From assembly GCA_037355855.1 (NCBI GenBank), contig CM074760.1, forward strand, positions 3,774,501 to 3,838,500: 64,000 nucleotides of DNA, read 5' to 3'. The stretch is from Pseudo-nitzschia pungens (lineage: Eukaryota; Bacillariophyta; Bacillariophyceae; Bacillariales; Bacillariaceae). Position 1 is the first letter of the stretch. The number at the start of each line of letters is the position of its first letter. Of this stretch, positions 11,289 through 51,797 are shown in pieces. The position numbers and the translations under genes are program-made. The notes beneath the pieces were generated by a model that saw nothing but the letters and a program-made list of their open reading frames with translations, made no database searches and was not told the origin of the DNA.

Positions 11289-11315
11289 CACTCCTGTTGA
11301 TCAAGCATGTTTCCC

Positions 11316-16625: not shown

Positions 16626-16793
16626 GGTTGCCGGAGGACGCTGTGTCTACTGCGACGGCTTACCTGTGTTGTTGTTGCTTGTGTGGAGGATTCTGGTGAG
16701 TGTCGACTCAACACACAAAGTAACGGGATGTCTATGGTGACACTTCTATTCAGAGATTTGTAATCGATCTGATACCGATACTTTTCTCTTTTA

Positions 16794-31940: not shown

Positions 31941-33098
31941 TTAAGGGGATACCCTCAAAATGACTAACTGCAATAATAAATCGCGCGGTCCGCGCATCGA
32001 AAACTATCTTTGTTCCGGAAGGTCCTGTATACTTCACATAATCCACCATCTGCTCACTAATTTTTGCACAAAAACAGCAATGCCAAGGCAACTCTCTATG
32101 GGTCCAAGAGCTATCTGGCAAAGGGAGAGGCGCGCAAGGATCAGGCAACAAGCAGCGGATGCTGCCCAAAACGCAGCAGCATTTGCAGTTGCATTCCCCT
32201 TAACTGCCACTGATTGGGAGCGGCTTAATAATAGTAGGAGTGAAGAAGACAGGAGAGAGGTGGCAGGTGAAGAACCCCCTGCTGCTCCCGCTCCTGCTCC
32301 CCCCGTAGCAGCAGCAGCCAAAGAGGAGTCCGATCGACCCCCTCATCCAGTTATTCCAAGATGGGAGAATCTTGGACCACCAAACCTCCCCAATGATGTG
32401 AACGCGCCCACACAGATATTGAGATATCATGCCATACTGCTTGAGATGATGAGTCACTTTACAGGGATCAACCACCCCAGCAACAAGAAGTTATTCACAA
32501 ACGCTGAATTCTGTATTGTCAAACCGGACCACATCTACAGCTGGATGTGTTACAGGGCATATGGACTGGAGGATCCTGGCCTGGAGGACAATCCATACTT
32601 TGCAAGAGCCTCTGCCCTGGAGTTCTGGAAGAAAGCTATCTCCTATTTCATGCCAGTCAGTGCAAATTGGGATGATGCTAAAGAGGAAGGGAATCCCACT
32701 AAGTCAAAGAAAATTAACAATCTTATCAAAGCTGTCAAGAAGAAGGAGGCTCGATTGCTAGGTAAGGAAGGACAAACTGACAGAGCGTTTACGCTGGATG
32801 AGTTTATCCAAATGCTGGATCTAATCGGACTAGCTCCTACTATTGCTAACTTGCGCCACCTGGCAATGCTGAAGTTCCAGCTCCATCTTATTGCAAGAGG
32901 AGCTGATACATTGCACATGAGAAAGAAAAGCCGGCAAGAGAGTCTTACCTATCCTGGGTATCTAACTGCACAGATGAGGTGGTCAAAGAATGTAGACAAG
33001 GAGAAGGACTGTCCCCTACAGTTGCTGATGGGCTCCATGGATCCCTGGTTCTGTGTATTGCTTGGTCTTGCTGTCTATCTAGAGACATGGCTCACCCA

Positions 33099-35130
33099 CA
33101 ATTTGCGCATCGCGCATTTTGTCCGACGTTCCGATGTTCCAGTACTAAAAATACGTAGATTTCTACACAACTTTACCATGCGATATCTCGCTCCCTTTTA
33201 CACCACCAATCACAACCCCAGGACCTACATGTATTAACCAAGACCTGCGCTCTTTGTTTCTGCTATTGGTTCAGTTGCTGGCTGCTTCTTTTGGTTGATT
33301 TGGTTGCCAATTCACCACTCGGCCGATCGACAGCAACAACCAAAACAAAACCGACACCTAATTTTCTACAGCACCTCCAGTACCGATTCTACAGCGATTC
33401 GAAAATACTTCTACTACGTAATACTGTTGCCGTCTTACTGTTGCCGTCTGTACTGCTTCGATCTGTTTCCAAGCTCCACCCTCAAGGCCCTTAAGTATAT
33501 ATTATACTTAATGTTCTACATTGTTTCCAAGCTTCCTAAGTGATTTCCACTTAACGTTCTACATTCTTCAAGGTTCCTTGCTAAGTCCCCTAAGTCTTTT
33601 CAAGGTGTAGTTCACGAACAGCCCCTTCCACTGTAGGTATATTTCTACAAGAAATTCCAGCTGTCATCTGTTTTCAAGTCCATTGCCCTGCTGGACCATA
33701 TGTGTTTTCGCTTATGGTCCTACTGTTTCTTGACCCAAGCCCCAAAGCCGCTAAGTACAGTTTGCTTAAGGCTCCACCACCTACATAACCCTCTCAGGTG
33801 TACTGTATAAATGTCATCTGTTTCCAAGTCTACTGCCCTGATGGACCCTAAGTGTTTTCGCTTATGGTCCTACTGTTTCCTGACCCAAGCCCTAAAGCCA
33901 CTAAGTACAGTTTGCTTAAGGCTCCCCTACCTACATATACCTCTCAGATGCATTCTTCAACTGTCATCTGTTTTCAAGTCTACTGCCCTGATGGACCATA
34001 AGTGTTTTCGCTTATGGTCCTACTGTTTCCTTACCCAAGCCCCAAAGCCGCTAAGTACAGTTTGCTTAAGGCTCTCCTACCTACATATACCTCTCAGATG
34101 CACACTTCAACTGTCATCTGTTTTCAAGTCTACTGCCCTGCTGGACCATAAGTGTTCTCACTTAAGGTCCTACTATTTCCTGACCCAAGCCCCAAAGCCG
34201 CTAAGTACAGCTTGCTTAAGGCTCTCCTACCTACATAACCCTCTCAGATGCACACTTCAACTGTCATCTGTTTTCAAGTCTACTGCCCTGATAGTCCATA
34301 ATTGTTTTTGATTATGGACCTACTGTTTTTATGACCCAAGCCCCAAAGCTGCTAAGTACATGTTACTTAACGCACCACCACCTACATATACCCCTCCAGT
34401 TCACAGTACAGCAGAGACCTGTTTTCAAGCCTACAGCCCTGATGGTCCATAAGTGTTTTCACTTAAAGGCCCTGTTTCCAAGCTACTACAGGAGAGCAAG
34501 TTCAAGTTCGAACAGAAGGCCAGCTGTTACGAATTTGAATTTGGTAGTAGGCTCCACCGCCTCTACGTGTCTCCTACTACGAAGTTCGAACAGAAGGACA
34601 GCTGTTACGAATTTGGTAGTAGGCTCCGTACTATATGTACCATACAGTGGTAAGGAATGTGTTTGGGGCACTCGCATTACTGATGCTGCAATACAGCATG
34701 CAGAGACCAGTTTTGCTTGCGTCAGCTGACCACTTGCATTACAGATACTATGTATCTAGGCAAGGGTTTTGCTTGTGTCAGCTGACCACTCCAAGCATCA
34801 CTGATGCTGTACAGTGGCATTCAAGGGACAGTTTTGCTTGTGTTTTCCCTTTCACGTTCTTGTTACCCCGTCTCCTGTACGCTTTGCAACAGCTGTGTCT
34901 GTTGTGCTCTGGACTGGTTCGTTTTTTTCCTGTTTCTTACCAAGGTTCGTTTGCACAATAGCCGTCTTTACAACCTGGGGCCTATTCCCCATGGTTGAGG
35001 CGGCGCGTCGTTCTACAACTTGGGGCCTAACCTCTCTTCGATTGAGGCGACGATAAAGTCTGGTTACAGACTGAGTAGCTTTTAACCACCTTCGGTGGAT
35101 TTTCCTACTTAAATAAGTATATTATTATTA
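33099..35130 (+). mobile_element. 2-kb non-coding retroelement, copy A (LINE partner)
   Basis: Inserted in Crypton copy 2 between duplicated CTAGAGACATGGCTCACCCA (33079-33098 and 35131-35150). It starts CAATTTGCGCATCGCGCAT and ends in TATATTATTATTA. Long target duplications and an ATT-repeat tail indicate target-primed reverse transcription, as for LINEs and SINEs. No frame has a recognisable domain. The last 110 bases match the 3' end of the LINE at 51330-51461, including the stem-loop AGTCTGGTTACAGACT. The interior has about six 150-bp hairpin units, then two near-direct copies of GTTCGAACAGAAGG..GCTGTTACGAATTT and three of TTTTGCTTG.GTCAGCTGACCAC. Copy B (55726-57735) is almost identical. 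Confidence 0.85.
33661..34560 (+). repeat. 150-bp tandem hairpin units inside copy A
   Basis: Units start with CTGTCATCTGTTTTCAAG at 33661, 33811, 33961, 34111 and 34261, with a diverged sixth at 34411, so the spacing is exactly 150 bp. Each has a hairpin: in unit 3 GGACCATAAG (33993-34002) pairs with CTTATGGTCC (34011-34020). In unit 5 GTCCATAAT (34294-34302) pairs with ATTATGGAC (34311-34319), changing both partners at two positions. An open frame across the units (33811-34311) is a by-product of the period being a multiple of three. Confidence 0.85.
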
Positions 35131-36180
35131 CTAGAGACATGGCTCACCCATGGAGCTGGGCGTCTTAGTCAGTGGCTTTTTGCTAAGACTACAGAGCTAG
35201 ATGGAGGACCAAGTTGATGCAAGACCGGTACTTGGAAATCCAGTTGGATTGGCTGGATATTAACGCTGGACGCAGGCTTTGCCACAGAGGGATCTGTTTC
35301 TACAAGGAGAAGGACTCCAGCAATGTGACGGAGGACTGGCTCTGCGCTTCTGTAACTCCAGCGATTAGGGAAGTCTTTGGGAGAGGCTTTGCCATCATCC
35401 TTGCAAAGCCTCTGCTTTGGGCATGCTATGATGCTACTGCTGCTGACTTAGTTCCCCCTGACTTGAGACAGAGGATTGTTAATAGATATGCTGCATCGAA
35501 CGCCGATAGAGAGATTGCAGATGGTGGCGGAGACAACCCAATCAAACAGATTTGAATCATCCCTTCAAACAATAATGGTGTCATGCACATGGATGAGGTT
35601 CCTGATGAGGATACAGAGGACAGAGAGACTGGAGGTGGATTTGGAAGAGGAGGACAAGAGTGGAGGAATGCAATTTATGCAAAGATCTGTACTATGCAAA
35701 CTAATGTGGCAGAGGTAAAGAACCACCAGCTGTTGGAGATTGCTGAGAAAGCAACAGTTGCAAACACTTATTCTATAAATTGTTTGTGGACTGTCGGTTG
35801 CTCCTGCTAGGAGAGCTGCTGGAGGAGGAGCAGTGGCAAGACATGCCACACCACAAGTTGTTCCAGATACTGGAAAGCCTGCTATGCTGTTTCCACATCT
35901 GTGAACCATTGAAGCAATGTGGGATGAGTATCAGAACAGCATCAGTGGTTGTAAGCCAGTAAGGGACTTCAGTAGAAGAGAGAGGGGACGCTGCAAGTTT
36001 AGATATGCAAGAAGGAAGCAGATATGGGATGCTGTAGAGCGCTTGTTGTATAGGGGAAACAACCCGAATACAGCATGTAATAAGCTCCAGCATCTCTTTG
36101 GGGATATGTCAATGACACGTCTAATCAATTTGATCTGGGACGATAACAAAAATGGTCCAAATCTGCTGCTGCTTTACTGA

Positions 36181-36582
36181 GGCGCTGTTGCTGATTGCTG
36201 TTTGTTGGATAGGGGACGTACCTCTGTTGTTGCTCATAAGGCATTTTCTCAAAGTTCAAGTTTATTGTTGTTACCCTTGTCAGTCTGTGGATCTGCTCTT
36301 CAGATTGGATGACAAGATGTCAAGTAAAATCAGATAACATTTGAAGAAAAAATTGATGTCAAATTTACTATGTGATTTTACACGGTGTTTTGAGTTTTTG
36401 ACTTTGAACTATATTTGTGATGCGTTCTAACAGTCTTAGGCATCGCTGACATCCATCTGAGTGAGAGAATGTAACCAAATGAGCTTTGCGTCCCCCTTTT
36501 GAGCCCATGTAGGATTGTACGTGTTTTCTGGTACTCATTCTTTTAGTTGCATATTGTATACATACCAACACCGTACGGTATT
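36181..36582. other. Crypton copy 2 3' flank
   Basis: After the recombinase remnant; no coding frame of note. Ends at the ATT duplication (36580-36582) of the MITE. Confidence 0.35.
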
Positions 36583-36783
36583 GAGTGATTCCTGAAAACA
36601 CAAATTACACAAATTCCTTAATTGCATTAAACAACAGTTATTTTTTGCGCACCCAATGGATGTGCATGAATAATAATTTAATGGTCGATACCAGTTTGTG
36701 CCTATTTTGGGCATTTTGGAATTTGGAATCAAATTTCCAAAAACAAAAAAGTCATTAAGCCAAACCTCTATTGCAGGCCGGCT

Positions 36784-37106
36784 TGTAACACTCTAAGGTA
36801 GAAATTCGGAGTAGTGTATGAAAATTGTGTGTTTAGATATTTTACGAGATATTGTTATGCGAATAAAGAATGAAGACATATAAAATTTCGAGGTCGCGAG
36901 CATAGCCACATTTTGGTATGCTCTGCCATAAATGTTGATTCATTGTCGGTTCCCACGATTAGGCATATAGCCTAATCTGGGACTCGACCATAATAGTTAG
37001 GACACATATTAAATGTATCCGGTATCGAAGATTATATTCGATTATTCAATGCGGGATTCGGTTAATTATCAAGTCGTAACTTACTAGCGTACGCTAGCAT
37101 GTTACA
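36784..37106 (-). repeat. Gypsy-2 3' LTR
   Basis: 323-bp LTR at the downstream end of the minus-strand element. Confidence 0.93.
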
Positions 37107-37136
37107 TAGTGCCCCATGATTGAACGAATCCCATGA

Positions 37137-40100
37137 TTAAGCCAACCAATGGTTCGAAGAGGACTCTGAGTCTTCTGATTGGCTCATTCGAATATCCGGG
37201 ATTTCATTCGTCGTAGACTCCGACTGGTTTGGTTCTCGATACGGAGTAAGTTTTCGGATGTTCACTGTTTCGATTACCGAAGGGGATTTTTGTAACTTAA
37301 CAGTCCCATTATCATTGACTTGAGTGATGGCGAAGGGTCCTATTTTGCGTGGTTGCAGTTTGTCCGGATCGGGCTCTTGGATCCATACCTTGTCATTGAC
37401 TTGAAAGGTGTGGCTGATTCGCTTGGCATTGTCCCTTAGCAAGTTTCTGTTGATTCCCTGTTGTCTGAGCTGTTGTAGCGCGATTAGGTTGGAGGTTAGT
37501 GGTAGATCAACCAACATGTCCCGATTGAAGACTAGGGACCCTGGGGATGCCTGTAAGGCAGCGTTGACAGCACATCGGGAGGCATGCATGCAGGTTGCCA
37601 GGGCATTGTCCATGAGCTGACTGGCTCTGGTGTTGACTTGAGGGGGATTCACATGGACTAGAACTCGGAGAATATCAGCGACTGTATGATGGACGCGTTC
37701 ACAGATGGCATTCGACTGGGGATTCTTCACTGTGGTGGGAATGGACTGAATCCCATACTGTTTGAGTGTTGTCTGGAACTCAGCCCCTAGGAATTCACCC
37801 CCATTATCATGGATACACCTGATAGGTCTGGGGTATCTTGAGAGCCAGCAGTTCTTGAATTGATCCGAGATATGCTGAGACGATTTGTCTCTGATCCGGA
37901 TGATTTCAAGTAGATTGGTGACTGGGTCAATACAAGTGAGGGCTTTGAAGTTGTAGTTCTTGCCTTGGGCTGTAATCTTCCATGGGCCTATAAGGTCCAC
38001 ATGTATCTCGTTGAATGGCACTAGTGGAGCTTCTTTCGGTGGCAGTTTACCATATTTGGAGTGTTGGTTCTTGTATTTGATGCAGTCGTCAGGGCATATG
38101 TAGGACTTGCATAAGTTGGACAGGTTATCAGCATAGAATCGTGCTGAGATAGTTTGATATAGCCTGGTGGATCCACAATGACCCAGCAGGAGGTGATACC
38201 ATTTGACTGTATCATTAATCAGTGTTGGTGGGATATAGATCTTCCAATTATCAGGGTTGGACTGATTCGCATAACATAACATTTGATTGCCTTCTAATTC
38301 TTGGTAGAAGAAGGCTTTGGATTGAATCTTGAACTTGATGGTCGGATCTTGTTGTTGATGAAGATATATGGTTGAGTAGTTCACCGGGCATTCCAAGTCC
38401 TGTTGGTTTGGTAGATTAATTAGACACTCATTGTTCAGCAGGCAAGCCTGTAGTTCTTTGTCTGCGTCATGGCATAAGTGTCGAAACAAATTGGGGAACT
38501 CTGTTAGAAACAGCTCTTCATCTTGTTTAGGGACTTCAAGTTTCAAAAAATCAATAAGAGTGCCTTTACCAAGGGCTTCTTTCTTCCCCACAGTAGGTGG
38601 ATCCATCCGGGGGAGCCTGGAGAAGGCATCAGCAAGAACGTTCTTCTTGCCTTCGACATAGGTGAGGTTAACGCCAAATTCTTCCAGGAATAGTCTCCAG
38701 CGGAGGACTCGTTGGACTGATAGGGTGCGGAAGGTAAGATTCTTATGGTCAGTGTATACGTTGATGATTCCACCGAGGAGCATCTTCCGGTACTCTTTGC
38801 AACAGAGTACAATTGCTAGGAGTTCTTTTTCCATAGTAGTATAATTCTTTTGGGCATCAGATAGTTTCTTGGACCAATAAGCAATAGGCTTGCCGTCTTG
38901 TAATATAGCAGCGCCCAGCTGGAGGTCTGAGGCATCAGTGTACAGTTCAAAGGGCTTGTTAAGATCTGGATAGGTGTTCAGCGCATCTGCTGCCACCATT
39001 GCTTTCATCTCTTGAAAGGCTTTATCTTGAGCAGGACCCCAAATGAAAGCTGAGGGAGCTTTTCTTTGCTTGCCTTTGATGGCAGCTGCTTGGGGAGTTG
39101 TCTTTGGGGTTCCTGTGATATCAAAGAGAGGAGCTAGGACATGAGAACGTCGGGGCCACATGTCCCTGTAGTATCCTACTGCTCCTAGGAAGGACTTGAC
39201 TTGGGTCACAGTTCGTGGTCGATCCATATGTAGAATCGCTTCGATCTTCTTCCTCCAGGGCTTGACAGCTGTAGGTGTCATCCAATATCCAAGGAAGTCA
39301 GTCTCTTGTACAGCCCAATCACACTTGAGTGGGTTGCACTTGAGTCCATTTTGGTTGAGCCGGTCTAGGATTTTGTCTATGGTCTTCATGTGGAGGTCAA
39401 AGGATCCATTGGTCCATATACCAATATCGTCAATATAAACAGTGCAGTCAGTGTCTTGTAGGATATCTTCCATTAGTTGCTGGGCAACGTCTGGAGAGAC
39501 TTTGACACCCATTGGTAGTCTTTGATATTCATAGCAACCATATGGAGTTACTATGGTACAGAGCTTTTTGCTTGCGTCATCGAGTTCAAAGCAGTAGTAT
39601 TGCATTGACAAATCGATCTTGGTAAAGTGAGTATATTTGCCACGCTTGTTCATGATGTCTTGTATCCGGGGGATTGGATATGGTCGGCGCTCAAGAAGTT
39701 CATTCAGTTCTCTAAAGTCTGATACCCATCTAACTCTGTTGTCTTTCTTTGGTACTATGAAGGTTGGGAACGCCCATTCAGCTGGTCCAGTGCATCACTT
39801 GAGTACTCCATCATTACAAAGATTCTGGAGCTCCCTTTTGAATAGGTCTTCTCTTTTGTATGCGACTGGATAAGGCTTCTTGTGTATGGGCTTGGATCCG
39901 GGCTTCAGTCTTAGAGAGATCTTCTTGTGTGGATACTTCCCTAGTTCGCCGTTGAAGACATTAGGGTACTTGCTTAGTATGGCTTGGAACTGTTGTTGCT
40001 CTGCTTTGGACATGTGGGACTGTTGCTGTGCGACTGTGGATGGATCTGTTTCTTGGTAGGCTCTGTCTAGGATCACCTTGGACTTGTATGGATTAGCAAA

Positions 40101-41084
40101 GGAGAGGTCGTCAGCAAAGAGTTCGGCGTCTTCGAGTTCTTCCATGAGCATGGTATGGTTGTCATGGTACAGGGAGGTATCTTTCATGGGAATGGTTCGA
40201 TCCATCCACTGAACTGCTCCTTCTTTGAATAGGAGATTGATCTTTGCTAGGTGTAGGAAGTCTCTGCCTAGTATTAAATCGTATTTGCAGTTCGGGGAAT
40301 GGAAGAGCCTTGCTTCTTGTCGGTCGATGGTATAGTTGCCGAACTCTTGTAGCTTGGTGGTCTTCATGATGATATATTCTGTAGTATCGAAGCTTCCATT
40401 CGCTGTAGTGGTTAGGACTTGATGCTTGCTTCTGATTGGTAGTGTTCCGAATGGTAGAGCTCTTTTGTTGATTAAAGTTCCGGAAGATCCACTATCTAGT
40501 AGTGCGAGTAGTGGTCTTGATTTCGTTGGTATGCCTTGTATGTACTGTACTGTAGTTAAAAGAATAGGAGCCACGTTGCTCTTATTCGGGGATGCCTGTT
40601 CTGCTGTATTTCCAGCAGTCGACAGCAGCTTTAAATAATTTTGCTCCAGCGCACCTCCTTTGGTGTAGTCTTTGGAGTTTCCGGGATTGCAATAGAGATT
40701 TTTTGCTGTACCGGTAGACCAATTTCTTGCCAGGGATAAGGTTGGTCCATTTATTGCTGCTGTCTTATTCTGATCGATTGTATTAATCGATGATGCGTCT
40801 GTACCCTTGGATCGATTCGATTGATTTCGATTCGTATCCATGTTCGGATTGCTCTTTTCGGAGAATCGAACTGTTTTTGTTGCTGCTGTTGCAGTCTTTG
40901 CTGAGCGCTCAACAGGAATACTCCATCCTGTAGGTTCCTTCCCCTCTTTCTCCGGGAGATCCCCTCCTTGCGTCATCCCAGTCAGCTGTGCTGGACTGGC
41001 ATCCAGGGCCTGTGGCGCTGGAGGCAAGGTGATTGCTGGTTTTGGTGGACCCTTGGGTCTCTTGTTGGAGGATTGCTTGTGCAA
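37137..41084 (-). CDS. Gypsy-2 pol, same frame as gag, one internal TGA
   Basis: Protease has ALLDSGSSGTLIN. The RT start follows NLCNDGVLK, where a TGA (39795-39797) interrupts, then WAFPTFIVPKK, RWVSDFRELN, YIDDIGIW and QVKSFLGAVGYYRDMW. RNase H has LYTDASDLQLGAA, MEKELLAIV and YTDHKNLTF. Integrase has HVDLIGPW, HDNGGEFLG and AICERVHH, then an SH3-like tail (FQVNDKVWIQEP, GPFAITQVNDNGTVKL). The region is one continuous frame apart from the TGA, where most relatives have a coding residue. With identical LTRs the stop is either very new, carried by the source copy, or read through. Confidence 0.88.
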
Positions 41085-42119
41085 TCATGGGAGCCATACA
41101 AGCTCACCATCTATGCTCCGTTCAGTTCGGCCGCCATGTTCTTGATGGTAGGATTCCATTGCTGCTCTCATGTGGGCTTGAAACGATTCATTGCTGCCAG
41201 GGGTCTCGTGGCACTGAGAATAGAATGTGTCAGTGTTGGAGTTGTTCGTGTTGCCTGAGCCCTTGTTGTAATTCTTGGAGAACTTGTTCTTCGGGCATTC
41301 AGACCAATCATGGTTGTGTCCCTGGATTCTGCATGGATTGGATTTCTTCTTGTTCTTGTTTTGGTTGGTTTTGTTGTTCGGCCCAGAGCGTTTTCGATTG
41401 TTAGGGCTGTTCGAATTGTTAGAGCGTTTGCTGTTGTTCTTGTTGTTCTTTTGCTTGCTTAGGCGATCGAGGCTGCTCATATGGTCCACAATGAATTGGG
41501 CCGTGGTCTCTGGCGTAAGCTTGAGATGGATTCGTACATAATCTTCGATCCAGCTGTTTGGGTAGCTGTGGAGGAGGATTGTTAGTGTTTGCAAGTGGTC
41601 CAGGTTGGATGCGAATCCATGTAGTTTGGCTGAGTACTTGATTAACGTCATGATTCGATCGGTATGGTCCTTGCAGGTGGATTCGATCTTCTTTTTGCAG
41701 GCACTGCCTCGTAGATAGACGTGCATGATGTCTCTAGCATCTTCAGCATTGCAGTATAGTTTGATAAAGGCTTTGAAGGCTGAGGTGTATCCCTCTTTCG
41801 TGAGTGGATAAACTCGTTGGTTGTTGGCGCGAGTCGCTCGCGTTAGCGCTCGCCACTTGGTCTGAGCATCAACGCATAGACAGCGTCCGAAGTACCGGAT
41901 CAGCGATGAGTCCGGAATGGTTAAATCCTCTGCAGCGTTCAAGAACGCCTCTTCGGTGTGGAGCAATTCTTCTAGCCCCCCCTTGTCCGTGAACAAAGGG
42001 ACCTTGACGCTATCCGAGTGATCTTCGGAGTCGTAGACGGAGAGAGTCACTAGCTTGGGTTTGGAGCTATCGAAGGAGCTCTTGTAGGCTATAGGTGGTT
42101 CTCTGTAGATGCCGGCCAT
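41085..42119 (-). CDS. Gypsy-2 gag
   Basis: 344 residues from ATG 42119, about 135 bases after the 5' LTR. An N-terminal acidic part is followed by a capsid-like helical region (SSLIRYFGRCLCVDAQTKW ... AFKAFIKLYCNAEDARDIM). Then there is a strongly basic, Asn/Lys-rich stretch and a Cys/His cluster (CRIQGHNHDWSEC) in the place of a zinc knuckle. It ends with TGA (41085-41087). The next codon (TTG) opens the pol frame in the same reading phase, so gag-pol can be made only by reading through UGA or by separate initiation. Confidence 0.88.
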   Translation of the reverse strand: MAGIYREPPIAYKSSFDSSKPKLVTLSVYDSEDHSDSVKVPLFTDKGGLEELLHTEEAFLNAAEDLTIPDSSLIRYFGRCLCVDAQTKWRALTRATRANNQRVYPLTKEGYTSAFKAFIKLYCNAEDARDIMHVYLRGSACKKKIESTCKDHTDRIMTLIKYSAKLHGFASNLDHLQTLTILLHSYPNSWIEDYVRIHLKLTPETTAQFIVDHMSSLDRLSKQKNNKNNSKRSNNSNSPNNRKRSGPNNKTNQNKNKKKSNPCRIQGHNHDWSECPKNKFSKNYNKGSGNTNNSNTDTFYSQCHETPGSNESFQAHMRAAMESYHQEHGGRTERSIDGELVWLP

Positions 42120-42254
42120 GGTTGCTTGTTGCGTCGATTGTCTTGCTGGAGATAAAGGGTCCTCTATTGTTGAGGATAGAAGTGTTTTGCTTTTCTTGAG
42201 ATTTCAGTACTGAATTCTACTACTGTTCCTACGTGAAGTGGACAGTAATTACTG

Positions 42255-42577
42255 TGTAACACTCTAAGGTAGAAATTCGGAGTAGTGTATGAAAATTGTG
42301 TGTTTAGATATTTTACGAGATATTGTTATGCGAATAAAGAATGAAGACATATAAAATTTCGAGGTCGCGAGCATAGCCACATTTTGGTATGCTCTGCCAT
42401 AAATGTTGATTCATTGTCGGTTCCCACGATTAGGCATATAGCCTAATCTGGGACTCGACCATAATAGTTAGGACACATATTAAATGTATCCGGTATCGAA
42501 GATTATATTCGATTATTCAATGCGGGATTCGGTTAATTATCAAGTCGTAACTTACTAGCGTACGCTAGCATGTTACA
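42255..42577 (-). repeat. Gypsy-2 5' LTR
   Basis: 323-bp LTR at the upstream end of the minus-strand element; identical by eye to 36784-37106. Confidence 0.93.
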
Positions 42578-43020
42578 CGGCTTGGTTTGGAAATCACATT
42601 GTCTGTTAATGCGTTTGATGACTTTGATGACTGACATCCCTTAGATGACTAAAATTTTGATCAGTTTTTCAATTTTTAGATTCCATTGGGAACTTTTTTG
42701 GAGTATCAGATTATGACAGTTGAGGTGCTTCGACTGTCTAAATTTGATTTTCAATGTGCATTATTTGCACTAATTAGAACTAAATCTTCTCCCAAAAACC
42801 TAAATTTGATCATGTGCAACCATTATTATATTAACTTTTGATGCAATTTATGTTTTCAGGAACCACTCATTGTGTTGCATTATTCCAAAAGTTTGGCTTC
42901 CTACTATGAATACGGTACCGGTACAATTGTTTTTTTGACTTCCACCAAATTGTGACTGATGGTATGATACTTGTGAGCAATAATAGAAAATTTCTACGAG
43001 TGATTAATTACCGTAGGACT

Positions 43021-45300
43021 CGAAAATCTCCAACTGGTAACCGGTTATGGGCTGGGTGTCCAAGCCCCACACACTTTTTCAGCAAGAAGGAGGGTAAAGA
43101 CAAAAAATCCATCCATGATATTTGCCGGACTGCCATCCCTCCTGTTTATGCTCAGGTTTTTCCGGACACTCCAGACTGGCGCAATGCCTCTGTAGCTTCC
43201 TTGGCTTCTATTGCCTCTGCTTGCTTTCAAGACTCTGCCCCAGCCTGGACCAAGCAACCACCTGGCCAGGCTCTGAAGCAATGTCTTATTGGTTTGGTCA
43301 AGATGTCTCCTGAGTGTTTTGATGACCTGTATTGTGAAGGCAACCTTTTGCCTAGCACTGAAGGCAAAGTATGGTGGGCAGCCAATCAGGTGCTTGGTTC
43401 TCATTGGCATTTCAAGCAGCGCCCTCCTACACCTGCGCCACCAGTGGCTGATGATGCTTCCACTTCCAAATCTTCCACTTCCAAATCAGTGTCCTTTCTT
43501 CCTGGTGGTGGTGATGCTACTGTCTTGTCCTCCTCTGCTGGGCATTTCCTCCAACGCCGAGGGGTTTGCTCCAGTGATTCTAGAGCTCCAGTGGATGTCA
43601 CTGCTGGCACCAAGTGTTCTCATAGTTCTTATGTCACTCTGTCCCTTCCAAGGTTGATGTCACAACGCCCTGGGGAACTATATGATGAGCTGCTCAAGTC
43701 TCTCAAGGAAGCTTTGGATCTTCTATGGACTGTTGACAAGCGCTTGGTGTTGTATGTTTTTCCCTCAAGAGCCAGGCTCAACCCCAAGGCCAAGCCTGTT
43801 ACCAAGTTTTGGACGACACTTCCTGACAGGAAGACCTTGGAATTGTATGTTGCTCAGCTCTGGCTTCGCAGTAGAACTGCTCCTCATCTACGATTCTTTG
43901 TGGGACACAGTGCTTCCCTGGAGAAACTCTTTTCAGCACAATTGCTCCAGAGGCTCAGAGACCGTGATATGGACCTGAAATATGACCACATACAGGCCCC
44001 AGTTATTGTCACCTGTGGCTTTCTCCTTGGATCTTACATGCAGAGTTTTGATCTTGACCACTACAACGAATTGCTTCAGACTCATCCCAGGTTTCAGGCA
44101 TGTCCTATTGCTGTTATCAGGAAGAATATCAGCCTTGACAACTCCAGAACTCCTGATCCCAATCCGGTTCTGGCTGCTCATGTTTTATGTGATGCAACAA
44201 AGCGCGCCCAAACTGTTAAGCTCCTCAAAGCCCAGTTCAACCGTTGCAAACCTTCAGACATTGCCTCTTTACCTGATGGTAAATTCTACAAGTTTATTGA
44301 GACAGCTACCAATCCTTCTGACAGACCTCTTCCCCCCTCCAAGCTCAAGACTGTTCGCCAGGCTAAGCACCGCCAAGCCAAATTTATTGAGAGCCATGAA
44401 ACTGCTCCTGTTCTGGGGGTAGTTGATCTTGATCTTCCAGTTGACTTGGGCCAAGGGCTGGGTTTGAAGACACTGCGCAGTGTGCTTCTGGGTATCAGAA
44501 CCCGTGACAATTGGTCATGGCCTCTTTTTCTTTCTGTTGATACCAGTTCATACCGAGGCGAGATCCTTGCTTTGTACAACATCACTACCAAGGCTGAAGC
44601 AACGGCCATGTTGTCTTTCCTGCCTATTTTTCTGGAAGCTCAGTATGGTTCTTGTGTTAGACAATGGTTCTCTTCTGAGTGCTTGACTGAAATGGAAGCT
44701 TACCATTGGGATGCTGCTGTCAATTGTGTTGTGGAAACTGCACCTGCTGCAGATCCAATGCAGGATAACTCTCTTCCATTTTTTGGTGATGGGGATGCAC
44801 GAGATTGGGAACTTGTTGATGATGACTTGTCAGTTGACCTTGCTCCTGATCTCACTTTTGATCTGGATTTGCACTTTAACCTCCAAGCCCGTGCTGACAG
44901 TGGTGGTGGAGGCTTTGATGATTCTCAATCCATGGATACTTTAGCGACCGGCACTTCCAATCTCACTGATGTCCAGGCCTCAGCGCCTGCAGGTGCTGTC
45001 CCTCCTGGCGGTGATCCTACCCATGTGGCCAAGGCTGATGCCTCCCCTGGTATCTCTCCTGAAGTTCCCCCTGAAGTTCCTGACCCTCCCCATGATGCCA
45101 TGGCTGATGACCTCCCTGTGGCCTCTCCTGAGTCCTCAACTGCAGTTCCTGCTGCCGGTGGTGGGGATGATGCAGCATCTGCATTGAGGCTTGGAGTTGC
45201 TGCAATTGCATTCTCTTCCAGTCATGATGCTAGTGTCAGTGATTTGAGCCATGCCAATGTCTCCACCAAATCAGCTCCGGCAACTCTTCCTTCCGTGTGA
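43021..45300 (+). CDS. LINE ORF1, function unknown, N-terminus unclear
   Basis: An open frame crosses the 5' junction of the element: it begins in flanking DNA at 42952 and stays open to TGA 45298-45300. There is no early ATG inside the element, so the true N-terminus is missing or starts elsewhere. The first third is Pro/Ser-rich. The middle (LYDELLKSLKEALDLLW to VLLGIRTRDNWSWPLFLSVD) looks folded and resembles hypothetical proteins of algal LINEs as I recall them. The last 120 residues are acidic and Pro/Ala-rich. No zinc knuckle or RRM is visible. The usual ORF1 role would be nucleic-acid binding; here that is only inferred. Confidence 0.65.
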   Translation, partial: RKSPTGNRLWAGCPSPTHFFSKKEGKDKKSIHDICRTAIPPVYAQVFPDTPDWRNASVASLASIASACFQDSAPAWTKQPPGQALKQCLIGLVKMSPECFDDLYCEGNLLPSTEGKVWWAANQVLGSHWHFKQRPPTPAPPVADDASTSKSSTSKSVSFLPGGGDATVLSSSAGHFLQRRGVCSSDSRAPVDVTAGTKCSHSSYVTLSLPRLMSQRPGELYDELLKSLKEALDLLWTVDKRLVLYVFPSRARLNPKAKPVTKFWTTLPDRKTLELYVAQLWLRSRTAPHLRFFVGHSASLEKLFSAQLLQRLRDRDMDLKYDHIQAPVIVTCGFLLGSYMQSFDLDHYNELLQTHPRFQACPIAVIRKNISLDNSRTPDPNPVLAAHVLCDATKRAQTVKLLKAQFNRCKPSDIASLPDGKFYKFIETATNPSDRPLPPSKLKTVRQAKHRQAKFIESHETAPVLGVVDLDLPVDLGQGLGLKTLRSVLLGIRTRDNWSWPLFLSVDTSSYRGEILALYNITTKAEATAMLSFLPIFLEAQYGSCVRQWFSSECLTEMEAYHWDAAVNCVVETAPAADPMQDNSLPFFGDGDARDWELVDDDLSVDLAPDLTFDLDLHFNLQARADSGGGGFDDSQSMDTLATGTSNLTDVQASAPAGAVPPGGDPTHVAKADASPGISPEVPPEVPDPPHDAMADDLPVASPESSTAVPAAGGGDDAASALRLGVAAIAFSSSHDASVSDLSHANVSTKSAPATLPSV

Positions 45301-48300
45301 CAGACTCGGTTTCCTTCTGATCATGGTTAGCTCTTCTGGTATGAGGTGTGATGGGATGCCTTCCAATCCAAATCCCATCAATGCTTCTCCTGTTTCTCCC
45401 TTTTCCCCTTCCGACTCTTCCCCTGTCCCTCATTTTGTCCAATTAACTCTTCATGGAGAATCTCTTGCTGCTAAGGATTCTGACAGTTTTGGTCATTCCT
45501 TCCCTCAAGCTCCATCCTCTAACTCCACCATCATCACATTCCAAAACATTGGACCACAGCGCAGAGCTGCCTTTATGTCCATGTCCAAGCACAACGCCCG
45601 TCAATTTGTCAAGAGCAATGCCAGTGTGGCTCTTTTAGCTGAACATTGTTTGAATGAATCCAAACTCCTGCCCTGTGATCTTTTCAATCGGCGCATGAAG
45701 AATGTCAGTCCCTCAAGTTTTTCCTATCTTGCTAACAACAAGCATGAAGCTTCTGCCTGCTCTTGGCTTCAGCCTGGCGGCACAGGTTTTTCCATTGACC
45801 AGCTGTTCAGCTCACACAAGGTTGCACATGGAGCTGATCCATCTGGTCTTGGCAGATGGTCCTTTGTCAAGTTTCAGGGCAGGGATGGCTACAATGTCAC
45901 CATGTTTTCTGCCTACTGCCCAGTTGAAAATGATAGGGATCTTGGCTCAGTCTGGAATCAACAGTACCGATACTTTCAAGCCACTGAAAATCTTTTCAGT
46001 CCCAATCCATGCATTCTCTTTAACAGGGATTTAACTGCTGCCCTTCAAGTCTGTCTGGGTGCAGGTGATCAAGTCATTGTTGGGATTGACCAGAATGCTG
46101 ATGTCAGGACTGATGGCTTGTCTTTTGAGCTCAAGGCTCTTGGTTTCAGAGATGCCATTCTTACCCTTCATAGTACGTCTTCTCCTCCTGCCACTCACAA
46201 CCGCAACACTACCAGAACACCAATTGATGCCATTTGGGTCTCTGAGAATGTTGATGTTCTCAGGGCTGGGTATTGTCCCTTTGGAGGTGCCCATGGTATG
46301 GAATCTGACCATCGTATGCTCTGGATTGAGGTTTGTAATAGCAGCATCATGGGCAAACATTTGCCACCTCCTGTGAGATTCTCTCTGTCCAAACTCCAGT
46401 CCTCCCATCCTCATCTGCGACAACGGTATTTCAAGCGAGTGAGGCACTGCTTTCTCAAGGCTGGAGTGTTTTCTCTCCAAGCTAAGCTGGAGCACCTACT
46501 GGCTCAGTTTCAGTCTGGGGATATTTCTGTGCGCACTGATCTCATCACCACATATGAAGTACTCCATGAAACCTCTACCTCTCTCAGGCTCTCTGTTGAA
46601 CAAAACCTCTGCCACACTAGAGCTGGTTTGGTTCCATGGTCACCAAAGCTGCAAGTCTATCGTGATACCATTGACTTTTGGCGGCGTGTTGTTAAGTTGA
46701 GACAGGGTGTGTCCACCAGTCATACTGTTTTGAAAAGGTTGGCCTGCAAGCTTTCTCTCTACAAAGGAGAACACAGTGACCTTTCCAGTGCTCTCCTCCA
46801 TCTGAAACAAGCTTACAAGCAATACCGGGCAGTGAAGAAATTGGCCCCCTCATGGAGAGACTCCTTCAATCAAGGCCTGGTGGATGCACTTCTTGCTGAA
46901 GGCAAGCCTCACAACCAGCATGCTTCTCAGATTCGTGCCAGGATGCGCAGGGAACGTCTTCAACGAGAGCTTGGTCTCGCTGCTCGGTCTATTCGGGGAC
47001 GTGTCAACAAGTCAGCAGTCTTGCGCGCTATTGCAGTTGGCCATGATGGTGTTGAACAGGTCTTGGAATCTCAGTCTACTATGGTTCCAGCTATGGCTGA
47101 ATCCAATGTCCGGCGTCAACAGCAGTGTATTGGCACTCCTTCCATGACTCCCTCCTTCATTCAAGATTTTGGCTACCTAGGCACTGCCCATGCTGCTCCC
47201 CAAGTCCTTGATGGCACATACATTCCTCCTCCTGCCACTGACAAATACCTTTCTGAATTTCTTTCCTGTCTCAAAGTCCCTGACTCTATTCTGAGTTTGC
47301 CCCCCTTTGACTATTCAGTGTGTCCAGCTGACAATGCTGCTGCCTGGAAACGCCAGAGGGAACGCACCGCAAGTGAACCTTCTTGTTTGAGTTTTGCCCA
47401 CCACAAGGCATTTGCCCTGGATCCCCAGCTGAACAAGTTTGACACTCTCCTGAGATCCGTCCCATTGATTGTTGGCTTCTCTCCTTCTGCTTGGCAGGTC
47501 ATCACTGATGTTGAGATCTTCAAGAAACCTGGTGAATATAGAGTGGATAAGATGAGACTCATCCAGTTGATGTCTCCTGAGTTCCAAATCAACAACAAGA
47601 TGATTGGCAGACGAATTCTTGCCCATGCTGAACGTGCCAATGCCGTGGCTGTTGATCAACATGGAAGCAGGAAACATCACAAGGCAATCAACACATGCCT
47701 GAACAAGAAGCTCATATGTGATGTGTTGCGGCAGAAGTGCAGATCCGGTGCTGTTGCTATGAATGATGCCAAGGGCTGCTATGATAGGATCTCTCATCCT
47801 ATTGCAGGTCTCACTCTCCAGAGCTTTGGGGTTCCTGCACATGTGTGTGAGGTTCTTTTGTCTACTTTGCAACTTGCCAAGCACCACATCAAAACTGGTT
47901 TTGGTCGGTCAGGTCCTGTGTATGGTGATGAACCTGTTCCTCTCAGTGGTTGTGGCCAAGGCAATGGTATTGGTCCAACTCTTTGGGCTTTGGTGTCAAC
48001 AATTGTCTTCCGAATGATGCAACAGGCTGGGCATGGTGTCCATCTTCTCACTTCATTGTCCCTGCAACTGGTTTCTCTTGTGGGTTTTGCCTTTGTGGAT
48101 GACACAGATTTGTTTTGTGCTGGCTCTGATTCCTCCACATCTGGTGAGGAATTAGCTGTTGACTTTCAGGAAGCTCTTGACCGGTGGGCTGGTGGGATTA
48201 TTGCCACTGGTGGTGCTATTGAACCTGCCAAATCCTTCTGTTATTTGATTGATTTCAAATGGAATGGATCCGGCTGGGACTATCGTTCCATTGCTGACAT

Positions 48301-51163
48301 GCCCGGTGACTTCTCAGTTGCTGACAAAAATGGCAATCGAGCTACCCTGGATCGTTTTGAAGTTGACCATGCTGACAAGACTCTTGGGGTTTTTATCTCC
48401 ATGGATGGCAATGAGGAAGCACAGATTGCTCACATGAAGTCACAGTCTCAGTCTTTTGGCTCTCAGCTCAAGGCTTCCAAGTGTGAGAAGCGCGCATCCC
48501 TCTACACCTTCAAGTATTCTTTCATGAAGTCTGTTGAATACCCCATGCCTGTCACGCAACTTGATGAGGCCACTTGGACTAAGATAATTCACCCAGCTCT
48601 TGTTCCTGTGCTGAATAAAGCAGGGATGTCACGGACATTTCCTAGACATGTGTTCTATGGCCCTTCCCTCTATCAAGGCTTTGGATTCATCCATCCATAC
48701 CTCCTCCAAGAGTTCAGTCATATTGCCACCCTCTTTCAGGAATCTGTCAGGTCCTCACAAACTGGTAGGATTCTCAGGCTAACTGCTGAGTCTCTACGGC
48801 TCGAACTTGGCATTCCTCTCCATCTTGGTGTCACACCATATCATCCTTTTGCTTCCTACGTCACTCCCTGCTGGTACAAACATGTGTGGAAGTTTTTCTC
48901 TGTTCACCCTGTGAGCTTGTTTGAAGACTTCCCAGATCTTCCTCTGTTACGTTCCAATGACTGTTATCTCATGCAAGCCTTTGTCAACTCTGGCTTCAGA
49001 GGTGCTGACTTGTCCCTCTTGAATCACATGCGCATGTCCCTCAAGGCTATTTCCCTTGCTGACATATGTACCCCAGATGGGAAAAGAATCTCTCCCATGG
49101 CCTTCCAGCTGACATCCTCCAATCACTTGAGGGATCATCTTGACTGGCCGAGATGTCCTCCATCTTGGCCTCCAGCAGCAAAGCGCTTATGGACTAAGGC
49201 TCTTCAGACCTGTTTTCTTCCCCCCTGTCCACCCCCTGCAGCCAGGGCACCGGCTCCTTCTTTTCATCTTGGGCATTGGCTCTCTCACCAGACAGCTTCT
49301 CTTTGGCCTTGGTTTTTGTCTCCATCCACCAACAGAATATTCTTCAAAACTTCTACTGGCTGGATTGTGAGCACCTCCCAGGGCAGGGGCAGATACAGGG
49401 TCACTTCTGAACTCATTTCTGACAAACCAGCATGTGCTGATGTGCTTGTCTGCCCTGTTATCTGTGGCCAAGTTGTACGCGTTGTTGGGTCCTCTGCTTT
49501 TGTGTCTGAGCCTCCTGACATGGATCCTATGGAGTACAATCCATTTGAGTCTCTTCCAGCCTCCCCTGCAGATGCCTTTGATGCCCTCTGTGAGTCTCCA
49601 AGAGTACTTCTCCACAAATATTCCCTACCACAGGCTGGCTGTCAGCACCTTGTTCATGCTATTGAGAGCGGTACTGCCAGTGCTGTATGTGATGGTTCAT
49701 TTGATCCGGACCTTCTCAGAGGAACTTCTGCTTTCATTTTGTCACCTAATACCTCCACCAAGTCTGCTTCAATGTTCCTCACTGGCTGTAATTTTGTCAG
49801 TGGATCCCCTGAGGATCAGTCATCCTACAGGAGTGAACTGGCAGGCATCCTTGGAGTTCTCACCTGTTGCACTGCTCTGGTGAGTATCTTTGATATTGCT
49901 TCTGGCTCTATCACCATTGCTCTGGATGGTGACACAGCTCTCAAACAGGCTGAGGGATCATGGCCATTGGTTATTACCCAGAAGTCTTTTGATTATGTTT
50001 ATGTCATCAGAAACATGATTTCTGCCCTGCCAATCTCTGTGCACTTTCAGTGGGTTCAGGGCCATCAAGCTGGAATCTTTCTTGATTGGTGGGCCCTTCG
50101 CAATCATCAGGTTGACAGCATGGCAAAGGCATTTCTCTCTGTCCATAGAGCTTCTGCCCATCACTATCCCAGACTTGTGTTTGAGCCTTGGGCATTTTCT
50201 CTCAATGGATGCAAGTGTTCAAGGTTTGATCAAAATGCTTTGCATGTTGCCATTTCTGGTCCTCCTCTTCTTCAATATTGGCAGACCCACCATGATATCC
50301 CCATTCCACAACCTGTTTTGAGTTCCATCCATTGGTGTGCCCATCTGTCTGCCTTCAAGCGTCTATCTCCTGGCATGCAAAGGTGGTTTGTCAAGTTTGC
50401 TTCTGGATGCATTGGTGTTGGCAACCAACTCCTTCACTACCAGTATCAGGATCACTCTAGGTGTCCCTTGTGTGATGCAGACAACGAGAAGGTTTCTCAT
50501 GTGCTCTCCTGCAAGGATACTGGGGCTGTCAGGCATAGTGTGTCTGTCTTCACGGGACCACTGCAGAAGAGGCTTGAAGTTGAACAAACTGATCCATCAT
50601 TGGTTGCTGCCATTGTGGATCTTCTCACCAGAGTTCGGAAGGGCCAGAGAATTTATCCATCATCCTACTCACTTGCAATTGCGTCTGCTGTCAGGGCACA
50701 GAGGACTATTGGCTGGCACAACTGGCTTCTGGGTAGGTGGTCTCCTCGCTGGTATCAAATCCAGGCTGACTACTACTCCCACATTGGAAGCAAGCGCTCT
50801 CCCAAACGTTGGGCTACAGCTATCATCCATCAGTTCTTTCTTACCTCCTGGGATCTTTGGACTTATAGGAATGAACGACTCCATGGTCCTGGGGGTACCC
50901 TTGATGCTGAACAACACCAATCTCTTGATGCTTCCATTACCTCTGAATTGGCCATTGGTGCAGCTGGTGCACTTCCCCAGTCACACTCCCTTTTACAAAC
51001 CCCTTTCCAAGTCCTACAAGGTTACACCCTGACTGCCAAGAGGCAGTGGCTTGCAACCATCCACCTTGCCAGGAAGCAGTATGCAGCACCTGTCCAACCT
51101 GTGCAGCCATACCAACGAGAGGCTGCTCTCTTAAGAGCCTGGCTTACTGGACCTCAGGGTTGA
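45251..51163 (+). CDS. LINE ORF2: endonuclease, reverse transcriptase, RNase H
   Basis: 1970-codon frame, +1 relative to ORF1 and overlapping it by 50 bases; candidate starts are 45251 (MPMS) and 45323 (MVSSSGMR). The APE-like endonuclease has FQNIGPQ (near 97), LLAEHCLNE, GIDQNAD, IDAIWVS and SDHRMLWIE. RT has NDAKGCYDRISH, SGCGQGNGIGP and FVDDTDLFC (near 948). RNase H has VCDGSFDPD (near 1480), YRSELAGIL, ALDGDTAL and VQGHQAG...NHQVDSMAK, so all acidic positions are present. A CCHC-type finger CPLCDADNEKVSHVLSC (near 1738) follows. The frame is intact, so this copy may still supply enzyme. The TGA stop is followed by a 298-base 3' UTR. Confidence 0.93.
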   Translation: MPMSPPNQLRQLFLPCDRLGFLLIMVSSSGMRCDGMPSNPNPINASPVSPFSPSDSSPVPHFVQLTLHGESLAAKDSDSFGHSFPQAPSSNSTIITFQNIGPQRRAAFMSMSKHNARQFVKSNASVALLAEHCLNESKLLPCDLFNRRMKNVSPSSFSYLANNKHEASACSWLQPGGTGFSIDQLFSSHKVAHGADPSGLGRWSFVKFQGRDGYNVTMFSAYCPVENDRDLGSVWNQQYRYFQATENLFSPNPCILFNRDLTAALQVCLGAGDQVIVGIDQNADVRTDGLSFELKALGFRDAILTLHSTSSPPATHNRNTTRTPIDAIWVSENVDVLRAGYCPFGGAHGMESDHRMLWIEVCNSSIMGKHLPPPVRFSLSKLQSSHPHLRQRYFKRVRHCFLKAGVFSLQAKLEHLLAQFQSGDISVRTDLITTYEVLHETSTSLRLSVEQNLCHTRAGLVPWSPKLQVYRDTIDFWRRVVKLRQGVSTSHTVLKRLACKLSLYKGEHSDLSSALLHLKQAYKQYRAVKKLAPSWRDSFNQGLVDALLAEGKPHNQHASQIRARMRRERLQRELGLAARSIRGRVNKSAVLRAIAVGHDGVEQVLESQSTMVPAMAESNVRRQQQCIGTPSMTPSFIQDFGYLGTAHAAPQVLDGTYIPPPATDKYLSEFLSCLKVPDSILSLPPFDYSVCPADNAAAWKRQRERTASEPSCLSFAHHKAFALDPQLNKFDTLLRSVPLIVGFSPSAWQVITDVEIFKKPGEYRVDKMRLIQLMSPEFQINNKMIGRRILAHAERANAVAVDQHGSRKHHKAINTCLNKKLICDVLRQKCRSGAVAMNDAKGCYDRISHPIAGLTLQSFGVPAHVCEVLLSTLQLAKHHIKTGFGRSGPVYGDEPVPLSGCGQGNGIGPTLWALVSTIVFRMMQQAGHGVHLLTSLSLQLVSLVGFAFVDDTDLFCAGSDSSTSGEELAVDFQEALDRWAGGIIATGGAIEPAKSFCYLIDFKWNGSGWDYRSIADMPGDFSVADKNGNRATLDRFEVDHADKTLGVFISMDGNEEAQIAHMKSQSQSFGSQLKASKCEKRASLYTFKYSFMKSVEYPMPVTQLDEATWTKIIHPALVPVLNKAGMSRTFPRHVFYGPSLYQGFGFIHPYLLQEFSHIATLFQESVRSSQTGRILRLTAESLRLELGIPLHLGVTPYHPFASYVTPCWYKHVWKFFSVHPVSLFEDFPDLPLLRSNDCYLMQAFVNSGFRGADLSLLNHMRMSLKAISLADICTPDGKRISPMAFQLTSSNHLRDHLDWPRCPPSWPPAAKRLWTKALQTCFLPPCPPPAARAPAPSFHLGHWLSHQTASLWPWFLSPSTNRIFFKTSTGWIVSTSQGRGRYRVTSELISDKPACADVLVCPVICGQVVRVVGSSAFVSEPPDMDPMEYNPFESLPASPADAFDALCESPRVLLHKYSLPQAGCQHLVHAIESGTASAVCDGSFDPDLLRGTSAFILSPNTSTKSASMFLTGCNFVSGSPEDQSSYRSELAGILGVLTCCTALVSIFDIASGSITIALDGDTALKQAEGSWPLVITQKSFDYVYVIRNMISALPISVHFQWVQGHQAGIFLDWWALRNHQVDSMAKAFLSVHRASAHHYPRLVFEPWAFSLNGCKCSRFDQNALHVAISGPPLLQYWQTHHDIPIPQPVLSSIHWCAHLSAFKRLSPGMQRWFVKFASGCIGVGNQLLHYQYQDHSRCPLCDADNEKVSHVLSCKDTGAVRHSVSVFTGPLQKRLEVEQTDPSLVAAIVDLLTRVRKGQRIYPSSYSLAIASAVRAQRTIGWHNWLLGRWSPRWYQIQADYYSHIGSKRSPKRWATAIIHQFFLTSWDLWTYRNERLHGPGGTLDAEQHQSLDASITSELAIGAAGALPQSHSLLQTPFQVLQGYTLTAKRQWLATIHLARKQYAAPVQPVQPYQREAALLRAWLTGPQG

Positions 51164-51481
51164 TTACACTTTGTACTTTGGTTTTGTCTTCTGTTCCTGT
51201 TTCTCATCCTGTCCCATCCCTTTTGATACTGGATCTTATCCCAATATCCACATTCCCATCTCACTTTCTCTCAAGTCCCTATTTTGTGGGACTTGTATGT
51301 CTTTTTCCCTGCTTGATGTTCAAGGTTTGTTTGAAAATTTGTCGTTCTACCACTTGGGGTCCTGACTCTTCGATGGAGGCGACGTTAAAGTCTGGTTACA
51401 GACTGAGTAATTTAGTTCACCTTTGGTGATTAAAGTTATTTAAATACGTATATTATTATTATGATTAATTACCGTAGGACT

Positions 51482-51797
51482 CTCAGAAAGAATTCTTTGA
51501 TGGCATGATAGATTGAGCGACCCAAAGAACTGCAATCATCCCAAAACGCACAAGTAACCTTATGTACGAGTATGGTTTATGTACGTACCGGTACAGTTAC
51601 CAAAATCGAGAAGTCCAACAAATCTACAATGAAATAGGGCCTAAAATAGGCCTTTCACGAGAATGATAATGATGTTATTAACCGAAGTCCAGTATTTATT
51701 TTTCATAAAGGTAATTACCGTACATACCACGTAACTTAGTGACAGAACATTTACTTCGTACAAAATAGAAAACCCATCAAAATGGGTTGTTTCAATT
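51482..51797. other. short flank between LINE and Harbinger element
   Basis: AT-rich, no coding frame; contains TACCGTACATACCACGTAA-type words like the host intergenic regions. Ends at the ATT duplication of the Harbinger element. Confidence 0.35.

Follow-up and report, generated by a model that had tools for sequence, protein, structure and literature searches.

A 2-kb non-coding element of Pseudo-nitzschia pungens shares a structured 3' tail with a LINE that probably copies it in trans

Results

The partner element and the LINE end in the same tail

In a 64,000-nucleotide (nt) stretch of the genome of the diatom Pseudo-nitzschia pungens (positions 3774501-3838500 of contig CM074760.1, assembly GCA_037355855.1; hereafter the window), a long interspersed nuclear element (LINE) and a non-coding element of about 2 kb, here called the partner, end in the same structured 3' tail. 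On the sequence evidence given below, the partner is probably a non-autonomous retroelement that is copied in trans by the LINE family whose tail it shares, a reading to which we give a probability of about 0.86. Trans mobilisation through the tail had been proposed in an earlier, sequence-only reading of the window; the wider set of sequences supports that interpretation, and we infer it strongly. The features concerned are listed here, including a variable number of tandem repeats (VNTR) in the partner and open reading frame 2 (ORF2) of the LINE.

33099..35130, plus strand: 2-kb non-coding partner, copy A
33079..33098, unstranded: target duplication of copy A, left
35131..35150, unstranded: target duplication of copy A, right
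33658..34407, plus strand: VNTR of 150-bp tandem repeats, one internal hairpin per unit
34961..35004, plus strand: partner-specific hairpin A', a second, tandem copy of tail hairpin A
35007..35051, plus strand: partner tail hairpin A
35057..35072, plus strand: partner tail hairpin B, invariant between families
35073..35110, plus strand: partner tail helix C, inner stem CCACC/GGTGG
55725..57734, minus strand: 2-kb partner, copy B
43022..51461, plus strand: LINE copy, 5'-truncated
43001..43021, unstranded: target duplication of the LINE, left
51462..51482, unstranded: target duplication of the LINE, right
45248..51163, plus strand: open frame of LINE ORF2, 1971 codons from stop to stop, with endonuclease-like, reverse transcriptase, RNase H-like and zinc-finger-like regions
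51341..51383, plus strand: LINE tail hairpin A
51389..51404, plus strand: LINE tail hairpin B
51405..51441, plus strand: LINE tail helix C, inner stem TCACC/GGTGA

Genome-wide counts were made on the whole assembly (66,883,101 bases, 28 contigs). With up to 3 mismatches allowed, the 34-nt core of the tail matched 972 times and the reversed pattern 0 times, excluding chance as the source of the shared tail. Family-specific tail patterns of 37 nt matched 356 partner and 622 LINE tails, and those of 82 nt identified 311 partner copies and 464 LINE copies. Since 356 and 622 together come near 972, an approximate comparison because the patterns and thresholds are unlike, nearly all core-bearing tails seem to belong to the LINE or the partner family; on the same approximate figures a third family with this tail is superfluous. 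The first 20 core matches listed were each fetched with 9.5-kb surroundings, and LINE or partner type was found at 20/20 of these loci, one of which (L011) held just the tail, about 110 nt long and of LINE type. At the fetched loci, overlap between the LINE and partner queries was confined to the tail.

The tail blocks, the perfect stem-loop AGTCTGGTTACAGACT, the second stem and the ATT tails described in the sequence-only reading were all found where it had placed them. It had left room for two doubts, namely that other copies of the 2-kb element might carry tails unrelated to the LINE and that the shared tail might be a chimeric remnant; the tails counted above are LINE-like, and the tail ends full-length 2-kb elements with target duplications, so it is no remnant. 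The last 110 bases agree as it said, but the homology is longer, continuing more weakly upstream to about 34911 in the partner and 51289 in the LINE, where partner CAAGGTTCGTTTG corresponds to LINE CAAGGTTTGTTTG. In the partner this upstream homology is interrupted by hairpin A', which is stronger than hairpin A, lies between the upstream shared piece and A, and is present in 22/23 full-length copies. Most likely the 3' end of the partner was captured from the 3' untranslated region (UTR) of the LINE, this direction being the one we infer, and hairpin A was then duplicated in the partner.

The score of the upstream local alignment was matched by 1/2000 shuffles (1/1000 with looser gaps), and this weak homology beyond the tail could also be read as a sign that the partner arose from the LINE by deletion and internal rearrangement, as RIME did from ingi, with a tail that was inherited rather than captured. 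We disfavour this origin as quite improbable, since the partner body and the window LINE body share only two 12-nt hits (E 0.73), tblastx of partner against LINE gave nothing better than E 0.05, and at E 1e-5 none of the partner copies matched a 5'-extended LINE copy (L028) over more than 100 nt, shorter matches not being shown. Beyond the tail, no similarity of the partner body to the LINE was found in the window LINE, the fetched loci or L028. The trypanosome pairs RIME/ingi and NARTc/L1Tc, in which a non-autonomous element is paired with a LINE, have 5' sequence in common; our pair differs from them, and no shared 5' end of this kind was seen in the LINE/partner comparisons.

The tail RNA fits one three-hairpin module in both families

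Aligned with one another, 24 distinct tails, 9 of the partner and 15 of the LINE (L011, with its start cut off, was left out), support three hairpins with 33 pairs, and 98.4% of the cells are paired. The structure model was derived by folding the same sequences that were later scored for covariation. Hairpin B is unchanged across the families. Between the families, helix C pair 72-102 is G-C versus A-U, its inner pair 80-95 is C-G versus U-A, and hairpin A pair 11-37 is A-U or G-U, once unpaired, versus C-G. The second stem had been described as CCACC/GGTGG in the partner and only 4 bp in the LINE; its pairing is indeed kept, but it has 5 bp in both families (CCACC/GGTGG versus TCACC/GGTGA) and sits atop an outer helix that is likewise kept. 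The covariance analysis suggested in the sequence-only reading thus gave, on these 24 tails, pairing that is kept with changes on both sides at three pairs.

The covariation score, the number of cells paired and the number of cells changed on both sides were each reached by 0/500 shuffles and by no slid version of the model. Among the 135 partner-LINE combinations, 112 had at least three double changes. The commonest partner tail and the commonest LINE tail differ at 28 positions (3 pairs changed double, 2 single, 1 broken); when these differences were placed at random, three double changes arose in 3,273/100,000 trials, none of them with so few broken pairs. A partner and a LINE tail picked as a close ungapped pair (E1/L11) have 21 differences, with 3 double, 1 single and 0 broken, and 100,000 random placements gave three double changes 556 and 523 times in two runs, while both counts were matched 0 times. 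The LINE tail also folds better than 199/200 shuffles. Overall, these sequences support the hypothesis that the tail RNA of both families fits a single three-hairpin module that has undergone about three compensatory events.

Insertions of both families share ends, junctions and target duplications

Both families end in ATT repeats. In the window, copy A is flanked by the target duplication CTAGAGACATGGCTCACCCA, copy B by one in which one mismatch was allowed, and the LINE by TGATTAATTACCGTAGGACTC, 21 bp; target duplications therefore accompany all three insertions, as had been claimed, at about 20-22 bp instead of the 18-20 bp first given. For the partner, an exact duplicate of the 5' side, 15-21 nt long, follows the last ATT in 19/24 distinct insertions (21/24 with one mismatch allowed), while 0/552 mispaired flanks used as a control reach 10 nt. 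LINE target duplications were recovered for the window copy, for L011 and for two insertions in L026. The dinucleotide TT directly precedes the junction in 14/21 partner insertions (p 1e-10) and in 7/13 LINE insertions (p 4e-5), against a background of 0.088. Partner junctions were taken from target duplications, and LINE junctions from targets within LINE or partner sequence. Three partner loci with no recovered duplication (L012, L020, L031) lie outside the 21, three 3' flanks whose match began late were excluded from the junction table, and one LINE row of L026 (tail end 2947) had been compared with its own filled site; its true target is also without TT, leaving 7/13 unchanged.

Partner copies were found inside LINE copies, with other LINE copies showing the unfilled target (L020). 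At L031, L036 and L053 a partner is nested in the LINE 3' UTR, upstream of the LINE tail and in the same orientation; L053 also holds (tail end 358, complement) a LINE-type insertion within hairpin A' of a partner copy. Near-coincident partner and LINE insertion sites in the LINE 3' UTR (51178 and 51183) are expected by chance among so many pairs, on an estimate, and were not used.

The nearest-neighbour difference is 0.1-10% among 23 partner copies and 1.2-4% in the 3' kilobases of 15 LINE copies, and by this measure recent copies exist in both families. Tail constancy was followed in 8 partner copies that were chosen by the 34-nt core only or lay in the window. Six of these 8 show no change over the 52 nt that follow the core, and the other two have a 3-nt insertion and an ATT-repeat change; in the 300 nt upstream, the median divergence from other copies is 6-14%, indicating that the tail is held constant as the body drifts.

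Evidence that weighs against copying in trans

A number of observations count against the proposal that the LINE copies the partner through a conserved tail RNA. In the covariation analysis, 399/500 shuffles reached the observed three pairs with both-sided changes, and only two clades are compared, so that the double changes amount to about three events. Pair 17-32 is unpaired in 10/24 tails, and no pair is broken in only 30/135 partner-LINE combinations, the others breaking one or two; where pairs are broken in some copies they fall in hairpin A (1-2 pairs). When changes are simply placed at random, 0.5-3% of trials already yield three or more double changes, and with the E1/L11 changes confined to columns 67-107 and the rest kept the figure is 18.6%, with 22/100,000 breaking nothing. 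The window partner tail (from 35009) folds with a z of -1.63, and 14/200 shuffles fold as well. At the insertion sites, LINE duplications are few, the truncated copies L010, L015, L021 and L025 having given none at the blast boundary, and the TT count varies with the point at which the ATT tail is taken to end. Most of the partner copies were fetched for perfect ends and for that reason look young.

The tail block is a mosaic in which the core is nearly identical and helix C has diverged. This pattern, together with the fact that the comparison covered a single LINE family of the genome, would suit a history in which another reverse transcriptase mobilises the partner and the tail is the relic of a past chimera or has been gene-converted. 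Such a history has a small chance of being right: the diverged part keeps its pairing by compensatory changes, which conversion does not give, the ATT ends and TT junctions are common to both families, and the counts give no sign of a third tail class.

The partner is long, non-coding and without a detectable Pol III head

The partner measures 1856-2097 nt in 23 full-length copies, where short interspersed nuclear elements (SINEs) are expected to stay under about 0.7 kb. On contig C1 a perfect tail lies 1.3-2.1 kb downstream of 37/45 perfect partner 5' ends, and 36/67 perfect tails have a perfect partner 5' end; with up to 3 mismatches allowed, 371 partner 5' ends were counted across the assembly. 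In the 23 copies, the longest run without a stop spans 120-175 codons per copy. That of the window partner, 166 codons long, lies within the 150-bp repeats and had no Pfam match above the cut-off (best sub-threshold E 0.0036). Like a SINE, the partner thus appears to have no recognisable protein-coding capacity. ARAGORN found no tRNA in the window and an Rfam scan of 30000-58500 no family up to E 1, in agreement with the initial description of the element as non-coding and not visibly tRNA-derived.

Six partner copies were scanned over their first 400 nt and showed no B box. TTTT runs number 20-27 in each of the 23 copies, the earliest at nt 21 among the copies printed, and these runs together with the missing B box make a full-length RNA polymerase III (Pol III) transcript of the partner unlikely. 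One could still take the partner for a classical SINE with a Pol III head that has degenerated or gone unrecognised, and the 6 copies do contain, within their first 400 nt, A-box-like strings with one mismatch, as expected of so loose a motif; given the absence of a tRNA, an Rfam family and a B box in the sequences scanned, the TTTT runs and the length of about 2 kb, we consider this very unlikely. With no Pol III-type head (tRNA, 7SL or 5S) in the sequences scanned, the partner lacks two defining features of SINEs, the length and the head.

Each 150-bp VNTR unit contains a hairpin of about 11 bp. The single unit tested folds with a z of -3.5 and its complement with -3.7, so the fold says nothing on strand; hairpin A' likewise folds about as well on the minus strand and gives no strand evidence. 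Hairpin A' shows a double change, 2 copies having GTCG/CGAC and most GCCG/CGGC (read by eye from the listing). Of 108 VNTR hairpin instances (26 distinct), the 18 distinct ones of standard size (89 instances) were counted, leaving out 8 distinct ones of non-standard size that include a common, weakly folding one (9 instances). Among the standard-size hairpins, 10 or 11 of the 11 pairs are formed in 85/89. The 18 distinct hairpins have both-sided changes at two pairs, a number that 124/500 shuffles reach; 3/500 shuffles reach their covariation score, and one pair is unpaired in 6/18. It is plausible that the partner body is a conserved structured RNA, but these patterns could also reflect DNA-level turnover of the repeats.

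The LINE

In the window ORF2, Pfam identified RVT_1 (E 1.9e-11), with weak matches to endonuclease (0.0073, below the cut-off), zinc-finger (0.022) and RNase H (0.11) domains; among 14 aligned homologues it identified RVT_1 in 13, zf-RVT in 8, RNase H in 5 and endonuclease in 1. In the endonuclease region, residues such as D281/N283 and H355, which presumably have their roles in the LINE endonuclease, are invariant in these 14 homologues. FVDD and D1482/E1530/D1560/D1623, which we take to be catalytic, and C1739/C1742/H1751/C1755, which we take to be zinc residues, are invariant in the ORF2 homologue alignment. The LINE is accordingly predicted to encode an endonuclease and a reverse transcriptase, the Pfam match of the former being weak. 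The search found 74 homologues with identity up to 68%, mostly unnamed, with one named homologue (36% identity) coming from the diatom Cylindrotheca closterium; these are protein records only, in which 3' tails are not readable. There was no exact tail match in viral_contigs, no relative of the LINE in viral_contigs or genome_contigs, no match in the plasmid database and no sequence relative in the PDB.

The window LINE has the tail first described for it but is 5'-truncated near 43022, and other copies reach further 5'. One of them runs about 2.2 kb further, through tandem repeats, to Gypsy-like sequence, suggesting by arithmetic from this one copy that a full LINE is about 10.6 kb. The 5' region of a LINE copy at L028:1081-2124 is built of tandem repeats, which had no match over 100 nt to the partner VNTR and are possibly promoter monomers. 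Matches to the LINE reverse transcriptase (366) and to ORF1 (329), set against 622 LINE tails in the assembly, indicate many long LINE copies too, and the idea that a high full-length rate is special to the partner was dropped.

A proposed route of mobilisation

Transcription of the partner would come first, probably by RNA polymerase II (Pol II) in view of the many TTTT runs in the element. At its end this RNA would then fold into the three-hairpin module of the LINE 3' UTR, as the sequence and the compensatory changes support, and the ORF2 protein of the LINE may bind this module in the way that stringent-type LINEs elsewhere do. A nick beside TT, for which the junction preference is seen in both families, would be followed by reverse transcription from the ATT repeats, presumably by the LINE enzyme. 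The resulting insertions have a target duplication of about 17-25 bp and are often full length.

A bolder proposal sets the partner apart as a LINE parasite of a kind of its own, a long non-coding RNA, probably transcribed by Pol II, with stringent tail recognition, a selected body of repeated hairpins, and an edge over the LINE through the second recognition hairpin A'. We regard this as doubtful. Both this proposal and copying in trans are graded slightly lower because some tails break 1-2 pairs and because the VNTR support is weaker with all standard-size hairpins included.

Comparison with known systems

The usual account of SINEs is that of short Pol III genes which acquired a LINE tail. 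SVA elements reach kilobase length and end in poly(A), and in the EhSINE1/EhLINE1 pair the two elements share a 3' end and the SINE is of non-tRNA origin. A LINE-like 3' end is found in 58 SINEs according to a review that also describes both stringent recognition and the relaxed mode in which L1 recognises poly(A) (PMC3747384); in zebrafish ZfL2 LINEs the ORF2 region between the endonuclease and the reverse transcriptase binds the tail stem-loop (PMC4176376). SVA and LAVA are VNTR composites moved in trans by L1 (PMC4432496; PMC7353768), and EhSINEs have internal repeats, use LINE-encoded proteins and produce target duplications (PMC3716655).

The stringent pairs (eel SINE/LINE, tobacco TS SINE/RTE LINE, Chlamydomonas SINEX-3_CR/L1-1_CR, with ZfL2 for the mechanism) resemble ours in having a common 3' end of about 80-100 nt, a stem-loop and a short terminal repeat, and in a LINE enzyme that is presumed or shown to read the tail (PMC3747384; PMC4176376). 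In our pair the common tail runs across both families, the stem-loop in the tail RNA is conserved, some copies breaking 1-2 pairs of hairpin A, and both families have the same junction type and target duplications. The partner differs from the SINEs of those pairs in its length of about 2 kb, its lack of a detectable Pol III head, its VNTR body, its duplicated first hairpin and its diatom host. Like SVA and LAVA, it is non-autonomous and non-coding with a central VNTR; unlike SVA, it ends in ATT repeats, not poly(A), and has no Alu-like 5' domain (no Rfam match up to E 1). Its tail is a specific structured module in common with the LINE, whereas SVA and LAVA depend on the relaxed poly(A) recognition of L1. 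EhSINE1 is a further repeat-bearing partner that uses LINE proteins and makes target duplications, but EhSINEs are 0.5-0.7 kb with 26-27 bp repeats, compared with about 2 kb and 150-bp hairpin-bearing repeats here. The best reading of the sequences is a stringent-type LINE/partner pair whose partner would be SVA-like in VNTR and size, unlike SVA in its tail, and outside the definition of a SINE. Such a trans-mobilised element had been called unusual, a novelty that is tempered by SVA/LAVA and the repeat-bearing Entamoeba SINEs.

No diatom LINE/partner pair was found among the listed open-literature titles and abstract openings on diatom or Pseudo-nitzschia non-LTR (long terminal repeat) elements, a scope outside which lie subscription papers and Repbase, where the elements may be present. 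The available part of the P. multistriata genome paper mentions no such pair (PMC5485032). Borrowing of the LINE tail appears to serve even a 2-kb element in which no Pol III head is detectable, and the tail may thus be the sole real entry ticket. The two tails amount to a natural mutational experiment, in which one RNA module has two sequences, largely the same pairing and apparently one enzyme, through which the rules of tail recognition by a diatom LINE become open to direct test.

Other features of the window

The guanylate kinase encoded at 6712-7356 is 98% identical to a P. pungens protein (taxid 37318) and 89-92% identical to further entries under truncated names that start with 'Pseudo' or read Psemu1, as expected of a Pseudo-nitzschia host. 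Arrays of a roughly 39-nt unit, GGGGGGACAGCAAGCAGCAGCAACGCGTCGATAATACA, lie at 30980-31472 and 53590-55019 in opposite orientations, about 22 kb apart. A Copia-like (10991-17091) and a Gypsy-like (36784-42554) LTR element have terminal repeats that are identical over the 298-300 bp listed, indicating recent insertion of both. At 58100-59334 a unit of about 181 bp is repeated in tandem at least six times, and a near-perfect long hairpin with 99-nt arms, 99% complementary and 15 nt apart, lies at 62337-62549.

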